DNA of 64,000 bases, taken from positions 1-64,000 of the forward strand of contig JAEUSV010000014.1 in NCBI GenBank assembly GCA_016788485.1. Direction: 5' to 3'. Under the pieces are notes generated by a model that was given only the letters and a program-made list of their open reading frames with translations, did no database searches and had not been told where the DNA came from. This stretch comes from Flavobacteriales bacterium. GTDB taxonomy: Bacteria > Bacteroidota > Bacteroidia > Flavobacteriales_F > PHOS-HE28. Made by a program: the position numbers and the translations under genes. Positions 24,237 to 31,098 of the stretch are shown here, piece after piece; within the stretch, counting starts at the first letter, position 1, and each line of letters opens with the position of its first letter.

Positions 24237-26369
24237 CTAGCGCAGCAGGGTCACAGCGCCGGCGTACTCCTTGCCGTCCACGTAGAGCACGTAGTAGTAC
24301 GTGCCGTCGCTCACGCCGTTGGCCTGCCAGGTGTTCTTGTAGTTCGCACTGGAGTAGATCTCGTTGCCCCAGCGGTTGAACACGCTCAGCTCGGCGTTCG
24401 GGTAGTACTCCAGCCCGGTGAACTCCAACCGGTCGTTCAAGCCGTCACCGTTCGGGCTGAACACGTTCGGCACGAAGATCTCGGTGGGCTTCACGAGCTG
24501 GTCGTAGGTATAGCTGTCGGTGCAGCCATCGGCGGTGGTCACCGTGAGGGTGACGGGGTACACACCGGGCTGCGCGAATGCGGTGGCATAGGTGGTGCCG
24601 CTGCCCTGGAGGGTTCCGGCCAGGCTCCAGTCCCACGCCGTGATCACCGCGCCATTGGGGTTGGAACCGTCGGTGTAGAGCACCGCGGTGCCCGGGAACA
24701 CGGCGCCCGAGGGTGAGCCGGTGAAGAAGGCATCGGGTGCGGGCGCGGTGAGCACGTTCACCGGTGCGCTGGTGCCCGTGCAGCCTTCCGCATCGGTCAC
24801 CGTCACGGTGTAGGTGCCCGTGCTCACGGTGGTCGTGGCGCCGGTCTCCCCGTTGCTCCAGGCATAGCTCACATAGCCGCTGTCCACACCGAGCACGGTT
24901 GGCGCGCCGCCGCAGTTGAACAACACGCCGGTGATGGTGGGCGCGGGCGGCGGCACCTCCGTCACCGTCACCGTGTTCGAGCCGAAGGTGCAGTAGCCGG
25001 CCGTGACCTCGACACTGTAGGTGCCCGCGCTCACCAGCACGCTGTTGCCGTTGTACCCATTGCTCCACACGTAGCTATCATACAGGGGCGGAACGGTGAG
25101 CACAGCGCCGAGGTTGGAGCACACCACGGTATCGCCCGTGATCACCGGCGGCGGGAGCGTGGTGTAGAACACGTCCACCACGATGTCGATGGTGGTGGTG
25201 AGCGGCGGCGTGCCGTTGTCCGTGGCGGTGAAGGTGATGGTGTGCAGGCCCTGGTCGGCGACGGTGGGCGTGAACTGGCCCTGGACCAGCACGTTGGTGC
25301 CGCCGCTGGTGTTGACCACCTCGCTGTAACCGGGAAGCGTGGTGGCCGTGGAACTGGCCACGATGGTCTGGTTCTGTTCCGGCGCCAGGAAGTTCATCTC
25401 GATGTCGACCAGCTGTCCGGTGCACACCTTCACCGTATCGCAGAGGAAGGTGCTGCTGGCGATGGGCGGGATGTTCTGCGTGCTCACGGAGGTGGTGAAC
25501 ACGAAGTTCTGGTTGTCGAGCCAGTCGATGCCGTCCGCCGCACCGAAGGGTCCGTCGTAGGCGGAGCCCGGGGCGTCGAACGTGCCGAACTGGATGTAGT
25601 CGACCGCGTTGCCGCGGTTGGCGCCCACCACGGCGGGGGTGCCCCCGAAGCCGTTGACGCCCCCGGAGGCTGAACCGGTGGTCCAGTCCATGTTCTTGTA
25701 ACAGAAGCTCACGTTCTTGCCCACGCCGATCACAGGGTCGGTACCGTCGGTGATGATCAGCTGGAACGAGTTCTTCTTGTCGGTCTGCTGGGCGAAGTAG
25801 CCCACGTCCACCCAGTTCACGTAGAGCGCCGTGGGGGTCACCTTGTACAGGACCTCACCGCCGTTCAGCCCCAGCCCGTCATCACCGCGCGTGTCCACAT
25901 CGGCCCAGAACGGCGCCACCATGATGAACTGGTTGTTCGGGAACGGCGTGGCCGAGAAGGTGCCATAGGGGTTCTGGAACGAGATGTTGCCGTTGTTGTT
26001 GATGTACAACGTGTTGTACTGGTCGCCGTATAGGTTGAACTGGAAGGGGATGATGATGGCCGCCGAGGACAGGTCGTCGTTCGGCGACATGGCGGAGAGA
26101 TAGGACGAGTCCGGCTCGATCCAGCAGTTGCAGTCGCCGTTCACGCCGCCGCCCTTGGGCACGCCGATGTGGCGGCCGATGGGTGCCTGTTGCACCGACG
26201 GTCGGATGGGTCGCTGCATCGGACGATCGACCGTGAAGGACGCGGGCAGGGTGCCGGCGGCTTTCATCTGGTCGTACTGGGCGGGGGTGAGCGTGACGGT
26301 CTGCGAACGGGCCGGGAGCGCGGCCAGCAGGGTCACCATGGCCATCGCCATGATACGTGTATGCAACAT
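24237..26369 (-). CDS. Secreted NIDO-domain protein with Ig/PKD modules and T9SS type B domain (paralogue 2)
   Basis: The 710-residue protein has a signal peptide (about residues 1-23, ending RSQ) and an N-terminal block (about 50-310) with a nidogen-like NIDO domain: LYINNNGNISF, VAPFWADVDTRG, YKVTPTALYVNWVDVGYF, VDYIQFGTFDAPG. Ig-like and PKD modules (about 310-620) follow with YVWSNGYNG and YAWSNGETG repeats. The type B T9SS domain occupies ~625-710 (VPNVFSPNGDGLNDR, FNRWGNEIY). Its N-terminal half closely matches the gene before it, a tandem duplicate. It is the last gene of an operon headed by an ECF sigma factor, 32 nt after its paralogue. Surface adhesion is a guess. Confidence 0.85.
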   Translation of the reverse strand: MLHTRIMAMAMVTLLAALPARSQTVTLTPAQYDQMKAAGTLPASFTVDRPMQRPIRPSVQQAPIGRHIGVPKGGGVNGDCNCWIEPDSSYLSAMSPNDDLSSAAIIIPFQFNLYGDQYNTLYINNNGNISFQNPYGTFSATPFPNNQFIMVAPFWADVDTRGDDGLGLNGGEVLYKVTPTALYVNWVDVGYFAQQTDKKNSFQLIITDGTDPVIGVGKNVSFCYKNMDWTTGSASGGVNGFGGTPAVVGANRGNAVDYIQFGTFDAPGSAYDGPFGAADGIDWLDNQNFVFTTSVSTQNIPPIASSTFLCDTVKVCTGQLVDIEMNFLAPEQNQTIVASSTATTLPGYSEVVNTSGGTNVLVQGQFTPTVADQGLHTITFTATDNGTPPLTTTIDIVVDVFYTTLPPPVITGDTVVCSNLGAVLTVPPLYDSYVWSNGYNGNSVLVSAGTYSVEVTAGYCTFGSNTVTVTEVPPPAPTITGVLFNCGGAPTVLGVDSGYVSYAWSNGETGATTTVSTGTYTVTVTDAEGCTGTSAPVNVLTAPAPDAFFTGSPSGAVFPGTAVLYTDGSNPNGAVITAWDWSLAGTLQGSGTTYATAFAQPGVYPVTLTVTTADGCTDSYTYDQLVKPTEIFVPNVFSPNGDGLNDRLEFTGLEYYPNAELSVFNRWGNEIYSSANYKNTWQANGVSDGTYYYVLYVDGKEYAGAVTLLR

Positions 26370-26401
26370 GTTCAACCGTTATCGGCGTGTGGATGGAGCG
26401 T

Positions 26402-29365
26402 TCACTTCAGCAGCGTCACCGTACCGAACCAGTCCTGCTTGTCGGCGGTGAAGGCCTTGCGTTCCACCAGGCGCCACACGTACACGCCTTGCGGAAGGAT
26501 GTCGCCACCGTTCATGTGGCGCCCGTCCCAGCCCTTCGTGGGTTCCTTCGATTCGAACACGAGCTGGCCCCAGCGATCGAAGATGAGCAGCTCGTGGTCC
26601 TCGGGCACCATGTCGGCGGTGATGGGCAGGAAGATCTCGTTCACGCCATCGCCATCGGGTGTGAAGGCGTTCGGCACGAACAGGCTCGGCACGATGATCG
26701 GCACGGTCTGGCACAGGGTGTCCGTGCAGCCGTAGCGGTCCCACACCTGCAGGCACACCTCGTATTCGTCGCCGAAAGCGTTCTCGAAGAGGTGGTACTC
26801 GAACCGCTCCGTGCCGGTGGCCTCACCGGCGAAGTCCCACGCGAACTCCGTGGCGTACGGGTCGGAAGCGGCGAAGTACAGGTTGCTGTTCAGGTCGGTG
26901 CCGGGGTTCGGCGACCAGGTGAAGGTGGCCTTCGGCGGCGGTTGCACGAGCACCGCGCCCTGCTTCAAGAGCATGTCGGTGCAGCCTTCGGGCGTGGTCA
27001 CCGTGAGGCGCACGTTGTACCAGCCATCGTTGACGTACGTGTGCGCCAGTGTGCCGCACGCGTTGGCCGCCGGGCTTCCATCGCCGAGGTCCCACACGCA
27101 CGAGTTGCCCAGGTAGATCGGGTCGGTGAGGTTGGTGAACACGACGTCCAGGGGCGCGCAGCCGCTGTCCGGGTCCACGGTGAAGAGCACGATGGGCAGC
27201 GGGTTCACCGTAACGTCCACGATGGCCGAGTCCGTGAGGTGGTCGCATTCGCCCACGCCATAGCTCACATACAGGTAGGGGCCGCTCACGTCCACCGCGG
27301 GGTTCAACGTGCCGCTGTGCACCGCGCCACCGGGTGCGCTCCACGTTTGGTTCGGGTCGGCGTCGGGTCCCAGCAGGGAGAAGAGGTCGGTAAGGGGAGC
27401 GTCCGCGCACACGGTGAGCACGTTGTCATCGCCGGCCTTGGGCAGCGGGTCGAGCGCGATGGTGAGCGTGGCGTTGAGGGTGGGACAGGGCGCGAGCGGG
27501 CTGGTGGTGTAGGTGTACACGCCCGGGGCATCGCTGGCGGGGTTGAAGGTGCCACCGAAGGGCGTGCCGCCCGGAGCGCTCCAGGTGCCCGTGTTGTCGG
27601 GCGTCCCGTTCAGCGCGTCGAGCATGTCGAGCAGCGGTGCGTCAGGGCACAGGGTGAGGGCGTTGGCCAGACCCGGGTCCATGGCCTGCTGCACGGTGAT
27701 CGTGGACAGGCTGGTGTCGTTGGGGCAAGGCGCGGTGCCGCTCACCACATAGGCATAAGCACCAGCGGGGTCCGCAGCGGGATCGAAGGTGCCGCTGAAG
27801 GGCGAGAGGTCGGGGTACAGCCAGCTGCCGCCCGCCTGCGGTGTACCGGGCAGGTTCAGGAAGAGCGGGTCGGTGCCGTCGGTGGTGCAGTAGGCGAGGG
27901 CCACGTCCTGGCCCGCGTCGGCGTGGGCCACCACGGCCATGGTCGCCGTACCGGTGCTGGCGCAGTTGCTGCCCGTGCCATAGGCGTACACATAGGCGCC
28001 CGGTACGTCCACCGCGGGGTCGAAGATGCCCGTCGACGGCTGGCCGTTGGGGTCGGTCCAATCACCACCGGGTGGCGGGTTGCCGCCCAGGATCGTGAGC
28101 ATGTCCACCGGTGCGGCATTGTCGCAAAGCGTCAGCGAGCCGGGCGTGATCGTGGCCCCCTGCTGGATGCTGAGCACGATGCTGAGCGTGGAGGTGATCA
28201 CCGGCACGCCGTTGTCGGTGCCTTCGATGGTGACGGTGTGGAAACCGGCATCGGCCGGGGTCGGCAGGAAGCCGATGGTGATGTCGGCGTTGACGCCCGG
28301 GGTGTTGCTGAGGATGCCGAAGTTGCTCAGCGTGGGCGCCGAGGCCGTGCAGGTGGTGATCTGGTTGGGCTCGGGTGAGAGGAACGACGCCGATAGCACC
28401 ACGGAATCGCCCACGCACACCACCAGCGTGTCGCACACGCTCTGCCCGCTGATCACCGGCGGTACGTTGGCCAGCGTGATGTCCGTGAGGAAGCTGAAGT
28501 ACTGGTTGTCGAGGAAGTCGATGCCGTCGTTGTTGCCGAAGGGACCGTCGTAGGCCGGCCCAGGCTGGTCGAAGCGCCCGAACTGGATGTAGTCGATGCC
28601 GTTGCCCTGGTTGGCGCCCACGTTGGCGGGGTTGCCCCCGAAGCCGTTCACGCCGCTGTTGGCGGAGCCCGTGGTCCACTGCATGTCGCCGTAACAGAAC
28701 GACACGTTGCCCCCGTTGGGGATCACCGGGTCCAGTCCATCGGTGATGATGATCTGGAAGGTGTTCAACTTGTCCGTCATCATCGAGTAGTACCCGACGT
28801 CGGTCCAGTTCACGTACAGCGCGGTGGGTGTCACCTTGTACTGCACCGCGTTGTAGGGGGTGGTGCAGCCGCCACATACGCCGCGGAGGTCCACGTCCGC
28901 CCAGAACGCGCCCACGAGCACCTCACCGGCCACGGGGAAGCCGTTCGCGGTGAAGCTGGTGAGGAAGTTGCCGAAGCTGATGTTGCCGTTCGTATTGATC
29001 CAGCACTGGTTGTAGTTCTGCCCGTAGAGCTGGAAGTTGAACGGCAGGATGATGGGTCCATAGCTCCCATCGTCGGCGTTGTTGAAACCGAAGGCCGCGT
29101 CCCACTCGGTGTTGTTGTCGATCGTGGTGTAGGTGGCGTCGGGCTGCCTCCAGCAATCGCACGTGGTGCTGCCTCCGCGTAGCTGGCCCGGGGCGGGTGC
29201 GCCCGCCGGCCGGGAGATGCCGGTGGCCACCACCGGTGGCGCCGGCCTGCTGGCGGCATAGCGCGCCTTCCAGGCGTCGTAGTCAGCGGCGTTGCTGAAG
29301 GTCGTTTGCGCGTCCGCGCCGACGACCATCACCAGGGAGAGGGCGGTGAGGGTGCGCTTGAGCAT
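26402..29365 (-). CDS. Secreted NIDO-domain protein with four Ig-like repeats, PKD and T9SS type B domain (paralogue 1)
   Basis: The 987-residue protein has a signal peptide (residues 1-19, ending GADA). A NIDO block (about 65-330) is marked by WINTNGNISFGNF, VGAFWADVDLRG, YKVTPTALYVNWTDVGYY and IDYIQFGRFDQPG. Four repeats of ~80 residues (about 405-735) have the core GG-W-P-G and G-F-P-D-G-Y-Y, for example WTDPNGQPSTGIFDPAVD. PKD-like regions (VWDLGDGSP) and a type B T9SS domain (~895-987, VPNAFTPDGDGVNE) follow. It begins 6 nt after the anti-sigma-like gene, so all four genes of this block are probably co-transcribed. Confidence 0.85.
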   Translation of the reverse strand: MLKRTLTALSLVMVVGADAQTTFSNAADYDAWKARYAASRPAPPVVATGISRPAGAPAPGQLRGGSTTCDCWRQPDATYTTIDNNTEWDAAFGFNNADDGSYGPIILPFNFQLYGQNYNQCWINTNGNISFGNFLTSFTANGFPVAGEVLVGAFWADVDLRGVCGGCTTPYNAVQYKVTPTALYVNWTDVGYYSMMTDKLNTFQIIITDGLDPVIPNGGNVSFCYGDMQWTTGSANSGVNGFGGNPANVGANQGNGIDYIQFGRFDQPGPAYDGPFGNNDGIDFLDNQYFSFLTDITLANVPPVISGQSVCDTLVVCVGDSVVLSASFLSPEPNQITTCTASAPTLSNFGILSNTPGVNADITIGFLPTPADAGFHTVTIEGTDNGVPVITSTLSIVLSIQQGATITPGSLTLCDNAAPVDMLTILGGNPPPGGDWTDPNGQPSTGIFDPAVDVPGAYVYAYGTGSNCASTGTATMAVVAHADAGQDVALAYCTTDGTDPLFLNLPGTPQAGGSWLYPDLSPFSGTFDPAADPAGAYAYVVSGTAPCPNDTSLSTITVQQAMDPGLANALTLCPDAPLLDMLDALNGTPDNTGTWSAPGGTPFGGTFNPASDAPGVYTYTTSPLAPCPTLNATLTIALDPLPKAGDDNVLTVCADAPLTDLFSLLGPDADPNQTWSAPGGAVHSGTLNPAVDVSGPYLYVSYGVGECDHLTDSAIVDVTVNPLPIVLFTVDPDSGCAPLDVVFTNLTDPIYLGNSCVWDLGDGSPAANACGTLAHTYVNDGWYNVRLTVTTPEGCTDMLLKQGAVLVQPPPKATFTWSPNPGTDLNSNLYFAASDPYATEFAWDFAGEATGTERFEYHLFENAFGDEYEVCLQVWDRYGCTDTLCQTVPIIVPSLFVPNAFTPDGDGVNEIFLPITADMVPEDHELLIFDRWGQLVFESKEPTKGWDGRHMNGGDILPQGVYVWRLVERKAFTADKQDWFGTVTLLK

Positions 29366-29371
29366 CCGTGG

Positions 29372-30448
29372 TCAGCGGAACAGGTAGATGGTCTGGCCCT
29401 TGCTGAAGGCCTTGTCGTTGCCGTCGAGGCCTTCGATCGCGTAAAAATAGTAACCCTGCGGACAGAGCTGGCCGCCCAGGTCGCGACCATCCCAGGGATG
29501 CAGATCGCCGGACTTGAAGACCAGGCGGCTGTCGAGGGAGTAGATGCGCACCTGCACGTTGGTGAGGCCCTTGGCCACCACCTCCAGTTCGTCGTTCACG
29601 CCATCGCGCTGGCCGGGGCTGAACGCGTTGGGGATCCACACTACCGGGTCGGCGGCGGGCACGCCCATCTCATCCGCGCCGTTGGGCTCTTCGCTCCCGT
29701 CATCGGCCGGTAGGGTCGGCGGCTGCTGGCCGGGCACGAGCCCTGCCGTGGGCACGCTCTCCGTCTGGGCCACCACCGGCTCGTTGATGGTCTGCTTGAT
29801 CAGCTGGTCGATGATGCGGTCCACTTCGGCCCGATGGGCGCCCGGCTTCTCGGGCTCGATGCGTTCGGGGGCATCGGCGTCGCGGTCGCGTGCTCCGATG
29901 GGCGCGTCCATTGCCGGGGCGTCCTGCGGAGCACTGGTGGCCGGAGGAACGGCCTGAGCGCTGGCGGGTGCCGATGCTGCGCTGGTGTTCGCCGGTGTGC
30001 CGGTCACGGCCGGTATGGCGGTCAACGGGGTGGTCACGACCGCAGGGGGCTGGTCGCCTTGGGGAGGTGGAGCGGGGGCCGGGGTGGAAGGCACTTCGGC
30101 CACCGGGATGGTCGGGGTGGTATCGGGGGAGAGGGTCCAGAAGAGCAGGCCGCCGGTGAGGGCGGTGGCGGCGATGCCGGCGGCGATCCAACCGCCGAAG
30201 CCGGAGCCACCGGCCGCGGAGCCCGCGGCGGCACCGTGGCCCAGTTGCTGGCTGATGCCGTCCCACACACCGGGGTCGGGCTCCAGCTCGTGGTCCTTGA
30301 ACCGGTCCTTCAGCAGGTCGCCCAGCCCATCGGCGGCAGGGGCCGCCGCGGCGAGCTGGCCGCTGATGGCCTGCCACAGGCCGGGATCCACCGGGGCCTC
30401 GTGCCCGGCGAACCGCTCCTGGAGCAGGTCCCTGAGGTCATTCTTCAT
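29372..30448 (-). CDS. Single-pass membrane anti-sigma-like protein ending in a T9SS type B (gliding-motility) domain
   Basis: The 358-residue protein has two tandem N-terminal copies of a short helical motif, LRDLLQERFAGHE...DPGLW (residues 5-32) and LGDLLKDRFKDHE...DPGVW (42-69), of the kind found in cytoplasmic ends of Bacteroidota anti-sigma-like proteins. One membrane segment (about 84-106) follows. Then comes a Pro/Ala/Thr-rich linker of about 165 residues and a C-terminal domain (~270-358) with IPNAFSPGQRDGVND and ending TIYLFR, which is a type B gliding-motility domain. There is no cleavable signal peptide. It overlaps the sigma-factor gene by 11 nt, which supports a regulatory partnership. 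A T9SS-type domain on an inner-membrane regulator is unusual. That it controls the sigma factor is inference. Confidence 0.75.
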   Translation of the reverse strand: MKNDLRDLLQERFAGHEAPVDPGLWQAISGQLAAAAPAADGLGDLLKDRFKDHELEPDPGVWDGISQQLGHGAAAGSAAGGSGFGGWIAAGIAATALTGGLLFWTLSPDTTPTIPVAEVPSTPAPAPPPQGDQPPAVVTTPLTAIPAVTGTPANTSAASAPASAQAVPPATSAPQDAPAMDAPIGARDRDADAPERIEPEKPGAHRAEVDRIIDQLIKQTINEPVVAQTESVPTAGLVPGQQPPTLPADDGSEEPNGADEMGVPAADPVVWIPNAFSPGQRDGVNDELEVVAKGLTNVQVRIYSLDSRLVFKSGDLHPWDGRDLGGQLCPQGYYFYAIEGLDGNDKAFSKGQTIYLFR

Positions 30449-30995
30449 GGCCGTCGCTATAGAGTTCGGCCGCCTCCTTCGGAAGCAGCTTGCGCAGGTA
30501 GGCCCGCGCCTTCATGAATTGGCTTTTCGAGGTGTTCTCGCTCACGCCCAGCATCTCCGCGATCTCCTTGTGGGCGTAGCCTTCGATCGCGAACAGGTTG
30601 AACACCGTGCGGTAACCTGGGGGCAGGGCCTGGATCAGCGCCATGATCTCGTCGGTGGTCATGCCGCTGAGCACGTGTTCATCCTCGGCGTGAAGGTGCT
30701 CCGCATCGCTCAGGTCCACGCTGTGGTCGTAGGGCTTGTTGCGGCGCAGGTGGTCCAGCGCGGTGTTCACCATGGTGCGGGCGATCCAGCCGCCCAAGGG
30801 GCCATCGCCGCGGTAGTGGTCCATCTTGGTGAACACCTTCACGAACCCGTCCTGCAGGATGTCGTGGGCCTGCTCCCGGCCGGCCGCGTAACGCATGCAG
30901 ATGCTCATCATCTTCCGCGAATACGCCTTGTACAGCGCCTTCTGCGCGATCGGGTCCCCCTTCAGGCACCCGGCGACCAGCTGCTCGTCCGTCAT
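30438..30995 (-). CDS. ECF-type RNA polymerase sigma factor (system 1)
   Basis: The 185-residue protein has sigma-70 region 2 (AYSRKMMSICMRYAAGREQAHDILQDGFVKVF, shortened to REQAHDILQDGFVKVF, about 42-60) and region 4 with a helix-turn-helix (LPPGYRTVFNLFAIEGY, HKEIAEMLGVSENTSKSQ, about 120-165). Regions 1 and 3 are missing, as in ECF factors. The ATG at 30995 gives the normal length; the longer in-frame extension overlaps the lepA promoter. It heads a run with the anti-sigma-like gene and two secreted NIDO proteins, suggesting it controls surface-protein output. A weak AACCTTTC element lies at 31027-31034. Confidence 0.92.
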   Translation of the reverse strand: MTDEQLVAGCLKGDPIAQKALYKAYSRKMMSICMRYAAGREQAHDILQDGFVKVFTKMDHYRGDGPLGGWIARTMVNTALDHLRRNKPYDHSVDLSDAEHLHAEDEHVLSGMTTDEIMALIQALPPGYRTVFNLFAIEGYAHKEIAEMLGVSENTSKSQFMKARAYLRKLLPKEAAELYSDGHEE

Positions 30996-31026
30996 GGCGT
31001 ACAGGGCAATGATGCGATCCAGGGTC

Positions 31027-31034
31027 GAAAGGTT
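31027..31034 (-). promoter_or_regulatory. Weak TAnnTTTG-like promoter (AACCTTTC) before ECF system 1
   Basis: Read on the minus strand, six of eight positions match and the element ends 31 nt before the sigma ATG. No TGTAAC-N16/17-CGTC element like those of ECF system 2 is present in this gap, so autoregulation of the same type is not supported. Confidence 0.3.
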
Positions 31035-31098
31035 GCCCGGACCACGTGAAATTACGGCGGATGCAGGGGGTGGCGGGCCCCGGCGCCCCGCCAATGGC

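Follow-up and report, generated by a model that had tools for sequence, protein, structure and literature searches.

The described anti-sigma factors closest in layout to the one considered here are the Dma proteins, which consist of an N-terminal domain, a transmembrane segment, a long tether and a C-terminal beta-barrel, and span both membranes (PMC13088901). The locus in question is a four-gene cluster, encoding an extracytoplasmic function (ECF) sigma factor, a candidate anti-sigma factor and two cargo proteins of the type IX secretion system (T9SS), in a 64,000-nucleotide stretch of a Flavobacteriales genome (GCA_016788485.1, contig JAEUSV010000014.1, positions 1 to 64,000; hereafter, the window). 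Other links between the T9SS and sigma factors are known. In the PorA/PorXY–SigP system of Porphyromonas gingivalis, an ECF sigma factor controlling T9SS genes receives a signal from PorA, which carries a T9SS C-terminal domain and acts upstream of the sigma factor, the connection between the two being unknown (PMC7712824). In Flavobacterium psychrophilum, the SM6 promoters, which are of the ECF type, are described for genes of T9SS components and for one pair of sigma and anti-sigma genes (PMC9723704). T9SS type B proteins are anchored at the surface by PorP-like barrels (PMC9143113), and in Flavobacterium johnsoniae SprB mutation in any of five conserved type B motifs blocked secretion (PMC12618676).

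By its predicted layout, the anti-sigma factor of the window is a T9SS-tailed sibling of the Dma-like dual-membrane-spanning proteins. It shares with them an ECF sigma neighbor, a cytoplasmic N-terminal domain, one transmembrane helix, a long, probably disordered tether, and an outer-membrane-directed C-terminal module; the likeness to Dma1 and Dma2 is one of described layout, while the sequence homology found here is to barrel-tailed Dma-like proteins. The terminal module is a beta-barrel in Dma and a T9SS type B-like CHU_C domain here, and since the defining barrel was tested for and is absent, we do not class the protein as Dma. Dma partners belong to the ECF21 family, and the neighbor in the window is placed as ECF by its Sigma70_r2 and r4_2 domains; here, unlike in Dma, cargo genes stand in the operon and the promoter is tied to T9SS cargo in a relative. 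The other systems differ in where the T9SS domain resides or in what is controlled: PorA is secreted, has its own signal peptide and acts by a two-component route, whereas the domain of the window appears to sit on the inner-membrane anti-sigma factor itself, and the SM6 promoters act on components of the machine, with no mention of an anti-sigma factor bearing a T9SS tail in the part of that source available (PMC9723704). With type B substrates such as SprB the protein has in common a CHU_C domain at the extreme C-terminus (PMC12618676, PMC9143113), but it carries a membrane anchor instead of a signal peptide, has lost the Arg–Trp of the NRWG motif, and has no adjoining shuttle gene. In the literature, with most subscription papers and all preprints outside the scope of the search, no description of an anti-sigma factor ending in a CHU_C or gliding-motility C-terminal domain was found. 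The sequence-only reading knew of no described system with this layout; yet the layout does not stand alone, since the N-terminus, transmembrane helix and linker follow that of Dma (PMC13088901) with the barrel replaced.

Architecture of the operon and of the anti-sigma factor

Reading of the open reading frames (ORFs) gives the following order on the minus strand, to which all features below belong: the ECF sigma factor (30438–30995, 185 amino acids; Pfam Sigma70_r2, 1e-15, and r4_2, 3e-16), the anti-sigma-like gene (29372–30448, 358 amino acids), cargo 1 (26402–29365, 987 amino acids), and cargo 2 (24237–26369, 710 amino acids, ATG start). The sigma and anti-sigma genes overlap by 11 nt (30438–30448), the anti-sigma stop is separated from the cargo 1 start by 6 nt, and cargo 1 from cargo 2 by 32 nt, in full agreement with the sequence-only reading. 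Both cargos are oriented like the sigma gene, and given the gene overlap and orientation all four genes probably are co-transcribed; start codons, signal peptides and co-transcription were judged by sequence only. Each cargo combines a signal peptide with NIDO, PKD and CHU_C domains and passes both PF13585 and TIGR04131, as expected of the two secreted proteins proposed earlier. The genome, which is 84% complete, encodes SprA, 11 PorP/SprF-like proteins, and 37 CHU_C domains.

The N-terminus of the anti-sigma factor is charged, and inspection, made without a dedicated predictor, reveals no signal peptide. Two cytoplasmic W-motifs are predicted, namely, residues 8–32 (LLQERFAGHEAPVDPGLWQAISGQL; 30353–30427), where W25 is invariant in the genus alignment A1 and AlphaFold2 places helices with low confidence, and residues 45–69 (30242–30316), where W62 and E54 are invariant in the same alignment. 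Anti-sigma factors of five species of the genus (loci L049, L053, L066, L067, L072) have three such motifs instead of two. The single transmembrane helix, the only hydrophobic one, is predicted at residues 87–106 (30131–30190; about 84–106 by hydropathy, 87–106 by AlphaFold2). It is followed by a periplasmic linker of about 165 residues rich in Pro, Ala, Thr and Glu (residues 107–271; 29636–30130), probably disordered, as its sequence is unconserved and AlphaFold2 confidence (pLDDT) is mostly 30–40; in 71 class-wide homologues the median linker length is 160 amino acids. Within the linker, a short helix is modeled with low confidence at residues 204–221 (29786–29839), and a similar VVxxIIxxL pattern occurs in many members of the genus. 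Alignment, hydropathy and structure prediction therefore bear out the architecture proposed earlier. The anti-sigma factor would grip the sigma factor via its cytoplasmic domain; the curated Pfam and NCBIfam anti-sigma models do not match the protein, whose only Pfam match is PF13585 (CHU_C), and searching solved structures by sequence brought up no convincing match. As the AlphaFold2 model of the whole protein is of low confidence outside CHU_C, no model of an anti-sigma domain is claimed.

The terminal domain (residues 272–358; 29375–29635) matches PF13585 with E 3.5e-9 (residues 272–346, 37.1 bits at a cut-off of 27), and its AlphaFold2 confidence is about 85–90 over most of residues 290–358. 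TIGR04131, the model named in the sequence-only reading, scores 14.8 bits, under its cut-off of 35, and hence the type B domain of the tail is divergent; its relatedness to T9SS domains is borne out by the CHU_C profile match. In a Foldseek search, the best matches of the fold are generic immunoglobulin-like (Ig-like) or FN3-like domains, and one chain of 8gl8, a structure of the T9SS translocon, is among the matches with E 1.6e-3.

Comparison of 108 anti-sigma tails with 183 cargo tails by column statistics shows that the anti-sigma tails keep PNGDG.ND, W.G, G.Y and G.V.L.R. The Arg of NRWG, in contrast, is present in 96% of cargo tails vs. 14% of anti-sigma tails, and the Trp, found in 90% of cargo tails, is outside the leading residues in anti-sigma tails; by a simple pattern, NRWG is found in 165 out of 183 cargo tails and four out of 107 anti-sigma tails. 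In the protein of the window, the corresponding residues are 304–307, SLDS (29528–29539), the position being set by eye on alignment A1. Due to the loss of Arg–Trp, the tail possibly is no working export signal; these data suggest a non-exported sensor copy of the T9SS signal.

Relatives within and beyond the genus

Matches were found in 40 out of 45 genomes of the genus, and in all 38 loci that were read the anti-sigma gene directly follows the sigma gene, so that the arrangement is not due to chance. A CHU_C cargo gene is the next one wherever the contig extends far enough, and the usual flanks are lepA upstream and metF downstream. Sigma factors are 76–90% identical within the genus, and the anti-sigma factors are 28–39% identical to that of the window; in alignment A1 the cytoplasmic motifs, the transmembrane region and the tail are kept, and the linker is variable. 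Three named related records are Flavobacteriales metagenome-assembled genomes (MAGs), and two MAG loci sharing the layout (L079 and L092) came up in a profile scan. A single-protein scan of the genome contigs found no relative.

Whole-genome searches combined with reading of neighborhoods identified CHU_C-tailed anti-sigma factors behind a related sigma factor in 13 families of Bacteroidia, and in many other families a CHU_C cargo is the next gene after the pair; thus, homologues do lie beside ECF genes, as the sequence-only reading supposed. After removal of duplicates, the survey comprised 72 CHU_C-tailed, 34 long barrel-type (scored by length) and 29 short anti-sigma factors; some N-termini were shortened by automatic start-codon choice, and their missing motifs or large gaps were not taken as absences. 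Among nine barrel-type proteins scanned, six match PF13568 (five above the cut-off) and three, including that of locus L186, have no Pfam match, and hence the label “barrel” is partly inferred from length and C-terminal sequence. A profile of the 44 cytoplasmic residues of barrel-type proteins recovers the anti-sigma factor of the window (E 4.8e-20) and each of the 37 from the genus; among 9469 other ORFs it has 43 matches with E ≤ 1e-4, equal to the number of anti-sigma genes in those loci. At the profile level, then, the cytoplasmic domain of the window protein is homologous to those of barrel-tailed Dma-like anti-sigma factors.

Three related sigma genes are present in the window genome, including that of the operon described above. 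The second (L186, contig G000:C54, 3512–4864) is accompanied by a Dma-like anti-sigma factor with a long barrel-type tail, and the protein encoded next looks, from its last residues, like a type A substrate of the T9SS. The third (L187, contig G000:C146) has its own CHU_C-tailed anti-sigma factor, with PKD domains ahead of the tail, and then a 1174-amino-acid CHU_C cargo; CHU_C-tailed anti-sigma factors accompany this paralogue also in L189, L191 and L193, and a CHU_C cargo of about 1200 amino acids comes next in L187 and L189. In the tree of sigma factors, the main CHU_C group includes neither the third paralogue nor L092. The free tree implies nine changes of the CHU_C label, and a tree holding 67 of the 72 as one clade fits no worse (p-AU 0.65), for which reason we prefer, as not proven, one main origin of the CHU_C-tailed type plus at least two separate gains.

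Individual loci vary. In family f15 (L210, L212, L213, L217, L302), the sigma gene and its CHU_C-tailed anti-sigma partner are immediately followed by another sigma gene paired with a short anti-sigma gene; in L289, an extra CHU_C protein of about 135 amino acids with a signal peptide lies between the anti-sigma factor and the cargo, about 979–1395 nt beyond the sigma stop. In L303 of family f61, a metF-like gene follows the sigma, anti-sigma and cargo genes, as in the genus of the window, and this shared neighbor suggests that the locus is old and conserved.

Promoter and candidate regulon

A predicted ECF-type autoregulatory promoter (31009–31040) precedes the sigma gene, with the –35 element GGCAAC (31032–31037), a spacer of 16 nt and the –10 element GCATCAT (31009–31015); in a position weight matrix scan of the window it is the sole strong match. 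The same element or a close variant lies just 5′ of the sigma gene in each of the 37 upstream regions that were examined in the genus, and the footprint is kept even where a cargo gene has been inserted upstream; in L063, a second site precedes the upstream cargo gene. The pattern [G/T]GCAAC-N16-GCATC, with the same spacing, also precedes the related sigma gene in several further families, which range from GC-rich to AT-rich. Hence, the sigma factor is predicted to autoregulate its operon via this conserved element. Further upstream, a possible housekeeping-type promoter is seen, by eye only.

In 21 genomes of a related genus (g20), 113 occurrences of the motif were counted, compared with three of a reversed control pattern. 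Forty non-sigma sites from five genomes, four covered completely and one (G434) lacking three sites, were followed into the next gene, and 14 out of 40 precede CHU_C genes, whereas the background is about 1.5% (246 CHU_C genes among approximately 17,000 estimated genes). The binomial p-value is 3e-16 (5e-12 if the background is set to 3%); it is optimistic, since independence is assumed while related genomes share some targets, but the cargo enrichment stays large. Several other targets resemble type A cargo by their last residues. The motif also is seen before a YqeY-like gene (L423, L429, L439), a topoisomerase I-like (topA-like) gene (L428, L435), and a gene for a small His-rich secreted protein (L422, L426, L442), all named by eye.

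Thus, the proposal that the sigma factor adjusts cargo expression gains from g20, where the sigma-type promoter precedes cargo genes far above background, and from the co-oriented cargos at 6 and 32 nt; the wide regulon it implies is not seen in the genus of the window.

Proposed mechanism and alternative explanations

Taking all this into account, we consider it fairly probable that an ECF sigma factor and its anti-sigma factor are encoded here in an autoregulated operon devoted to T9SS cargo, and that the inhibitor bears a mimic of the cargo signal in the periplasm. The starting points are observed in the sequences, that is, the architecture and its conservation, the N-terminal homology, the conserved promoter, its presence at cargo genes in a related genus, and the Arg–Trp loss. 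The inner-membrane anti-sigma factor would hold the sigma factor by its cytoplasmic W-motif domain, while the transmembrane helix and the long flexible linker would bring the CHU_C mimic of the sorting signal into the periplasm. There the tail would dock at the outer-membrane side of the T9SS (the translocon or a PorP/SprF-like shuttle) or compete with cargo tails, itself unexported; docking without export seems most likely because the Arg–Trp of NRWG is lost in the anti-sigma copy. An altered occupancy of the docking site, relayed by proteolysis or linker tension, would free the sigma factor. This would then drive transcription of the operon that encodes it, including the anti-sigma and cargo genes, and also of cargo genes elsewhere in at least one related genus. 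The docking partner, the lack of export, the identity and sign of the signal, and the release step belong to what we infer. In a broader and only tentative form, which we regard as possible but not favored, anti-sigma factors of a widespread class would sense secretion traffic with a copy of the T9SS sorting signal that no longer supports export, so that Bacteroidia would have feedback from T9SS load to cargo transcription.

Several points weigh against this scheme. In the genus of the window, the motif has few exact matches genome-wide apart from the sigma site, and these are scattered; of sites upstream of 20 other CHU_C genes in the window genome two score 9–11, compared with at least 18 for true sites, which is about chance; the recognizable regulon in this genus, as predicted, is this operon only. 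As the promoter was found there only at the operon (plus the L063 site), a wide cargo regulon is seen only for another genus. Even in g20, two of the 14 CHU_C matches are weak and resemble type A tails, and other ECF paralogues might use the same promoter. Several families keep the sigma/anti-sigma pair without an adjoining cargo gene. Finally, that NRWG is one of the five SprB motifs is our inference, the motifs not being spelled out in the accessible portion of PMC12618676.

The tail could instead be functional as a type B signal, in which case the T9SS would take it up and it would stay anchored on a PorP/SprF-like outer-membrane barrel while the N-terminus remains in the inner membrane. 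Such a protein would resemble Dma, which spans both membranes with its own barrel (PMC13088901), and PorP-like barrels do hold type B proteins at the surface (PMC9143113). Most CHU_C motifs are intact in the anti-sigma tails, and a linker of the median length, 160 amino acids, would span the periplasm if extended; but Arg–Trp is gone from nearly all of these tails, the anti-sigma factor has no signal peptide, and the contig of the window carries no PorP/SprF-like gene, although the genome has them. To our knowledge, there also is no precedent for a membrane-tethered protein threaded through SprA, and on balance we consider this explanation unlikely.

The same Arg–Trp loss would suit a different view, in which the CHU_C fold is an Ig-like periplasmic sensor for some other ligand (peptidoglycan, a misfolded protein, or an ion), unrelated to T9SS recognition, and cargo is one output of an envelope response. 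The generic Ig-like and FN3-like top Foldseek matches, the families without neighboring cargo, and the motif at topA-like and YqeY-like genes of g20 agree with it, whereas the class-wide retention of the remaining type B motifs and the strong over-representation of cargo genes at g20 sites do not; nor does the sigma paralogue of the same genome whose CHU_C anti-sigma factor, apparently acquired independently, again is followed by a CHU_C cargo. We therefore think it rather improbable. That the second protein is no anti-sigma factor at all, but a membrane-anchored surface protein merely sharing the sigma transcript, seems very improbable: the protein matches no curated anti-sigma model, but its N-terminus is homologous to those of Dma-like anti-sigma factors, the gene overlaps the sigma gene, and the pairing with sigma is strict across families.

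How production of T9SS cargo is matched to secretion in Bacteroidota is a standing question. The locus puts a candidate sensor domain, a membrane anchor and a sigma inhibitor on one polypeptide beside the cargo, and makes secretion-to-transcription feedback directly testable. The occurrence of a barrel or a T9SS tail on related proteins suggests that outer-membrane-directed modules are exchangeable on the anti-sigma scaffold, and the proposed switch may let bacteria match cargo production to secretion.

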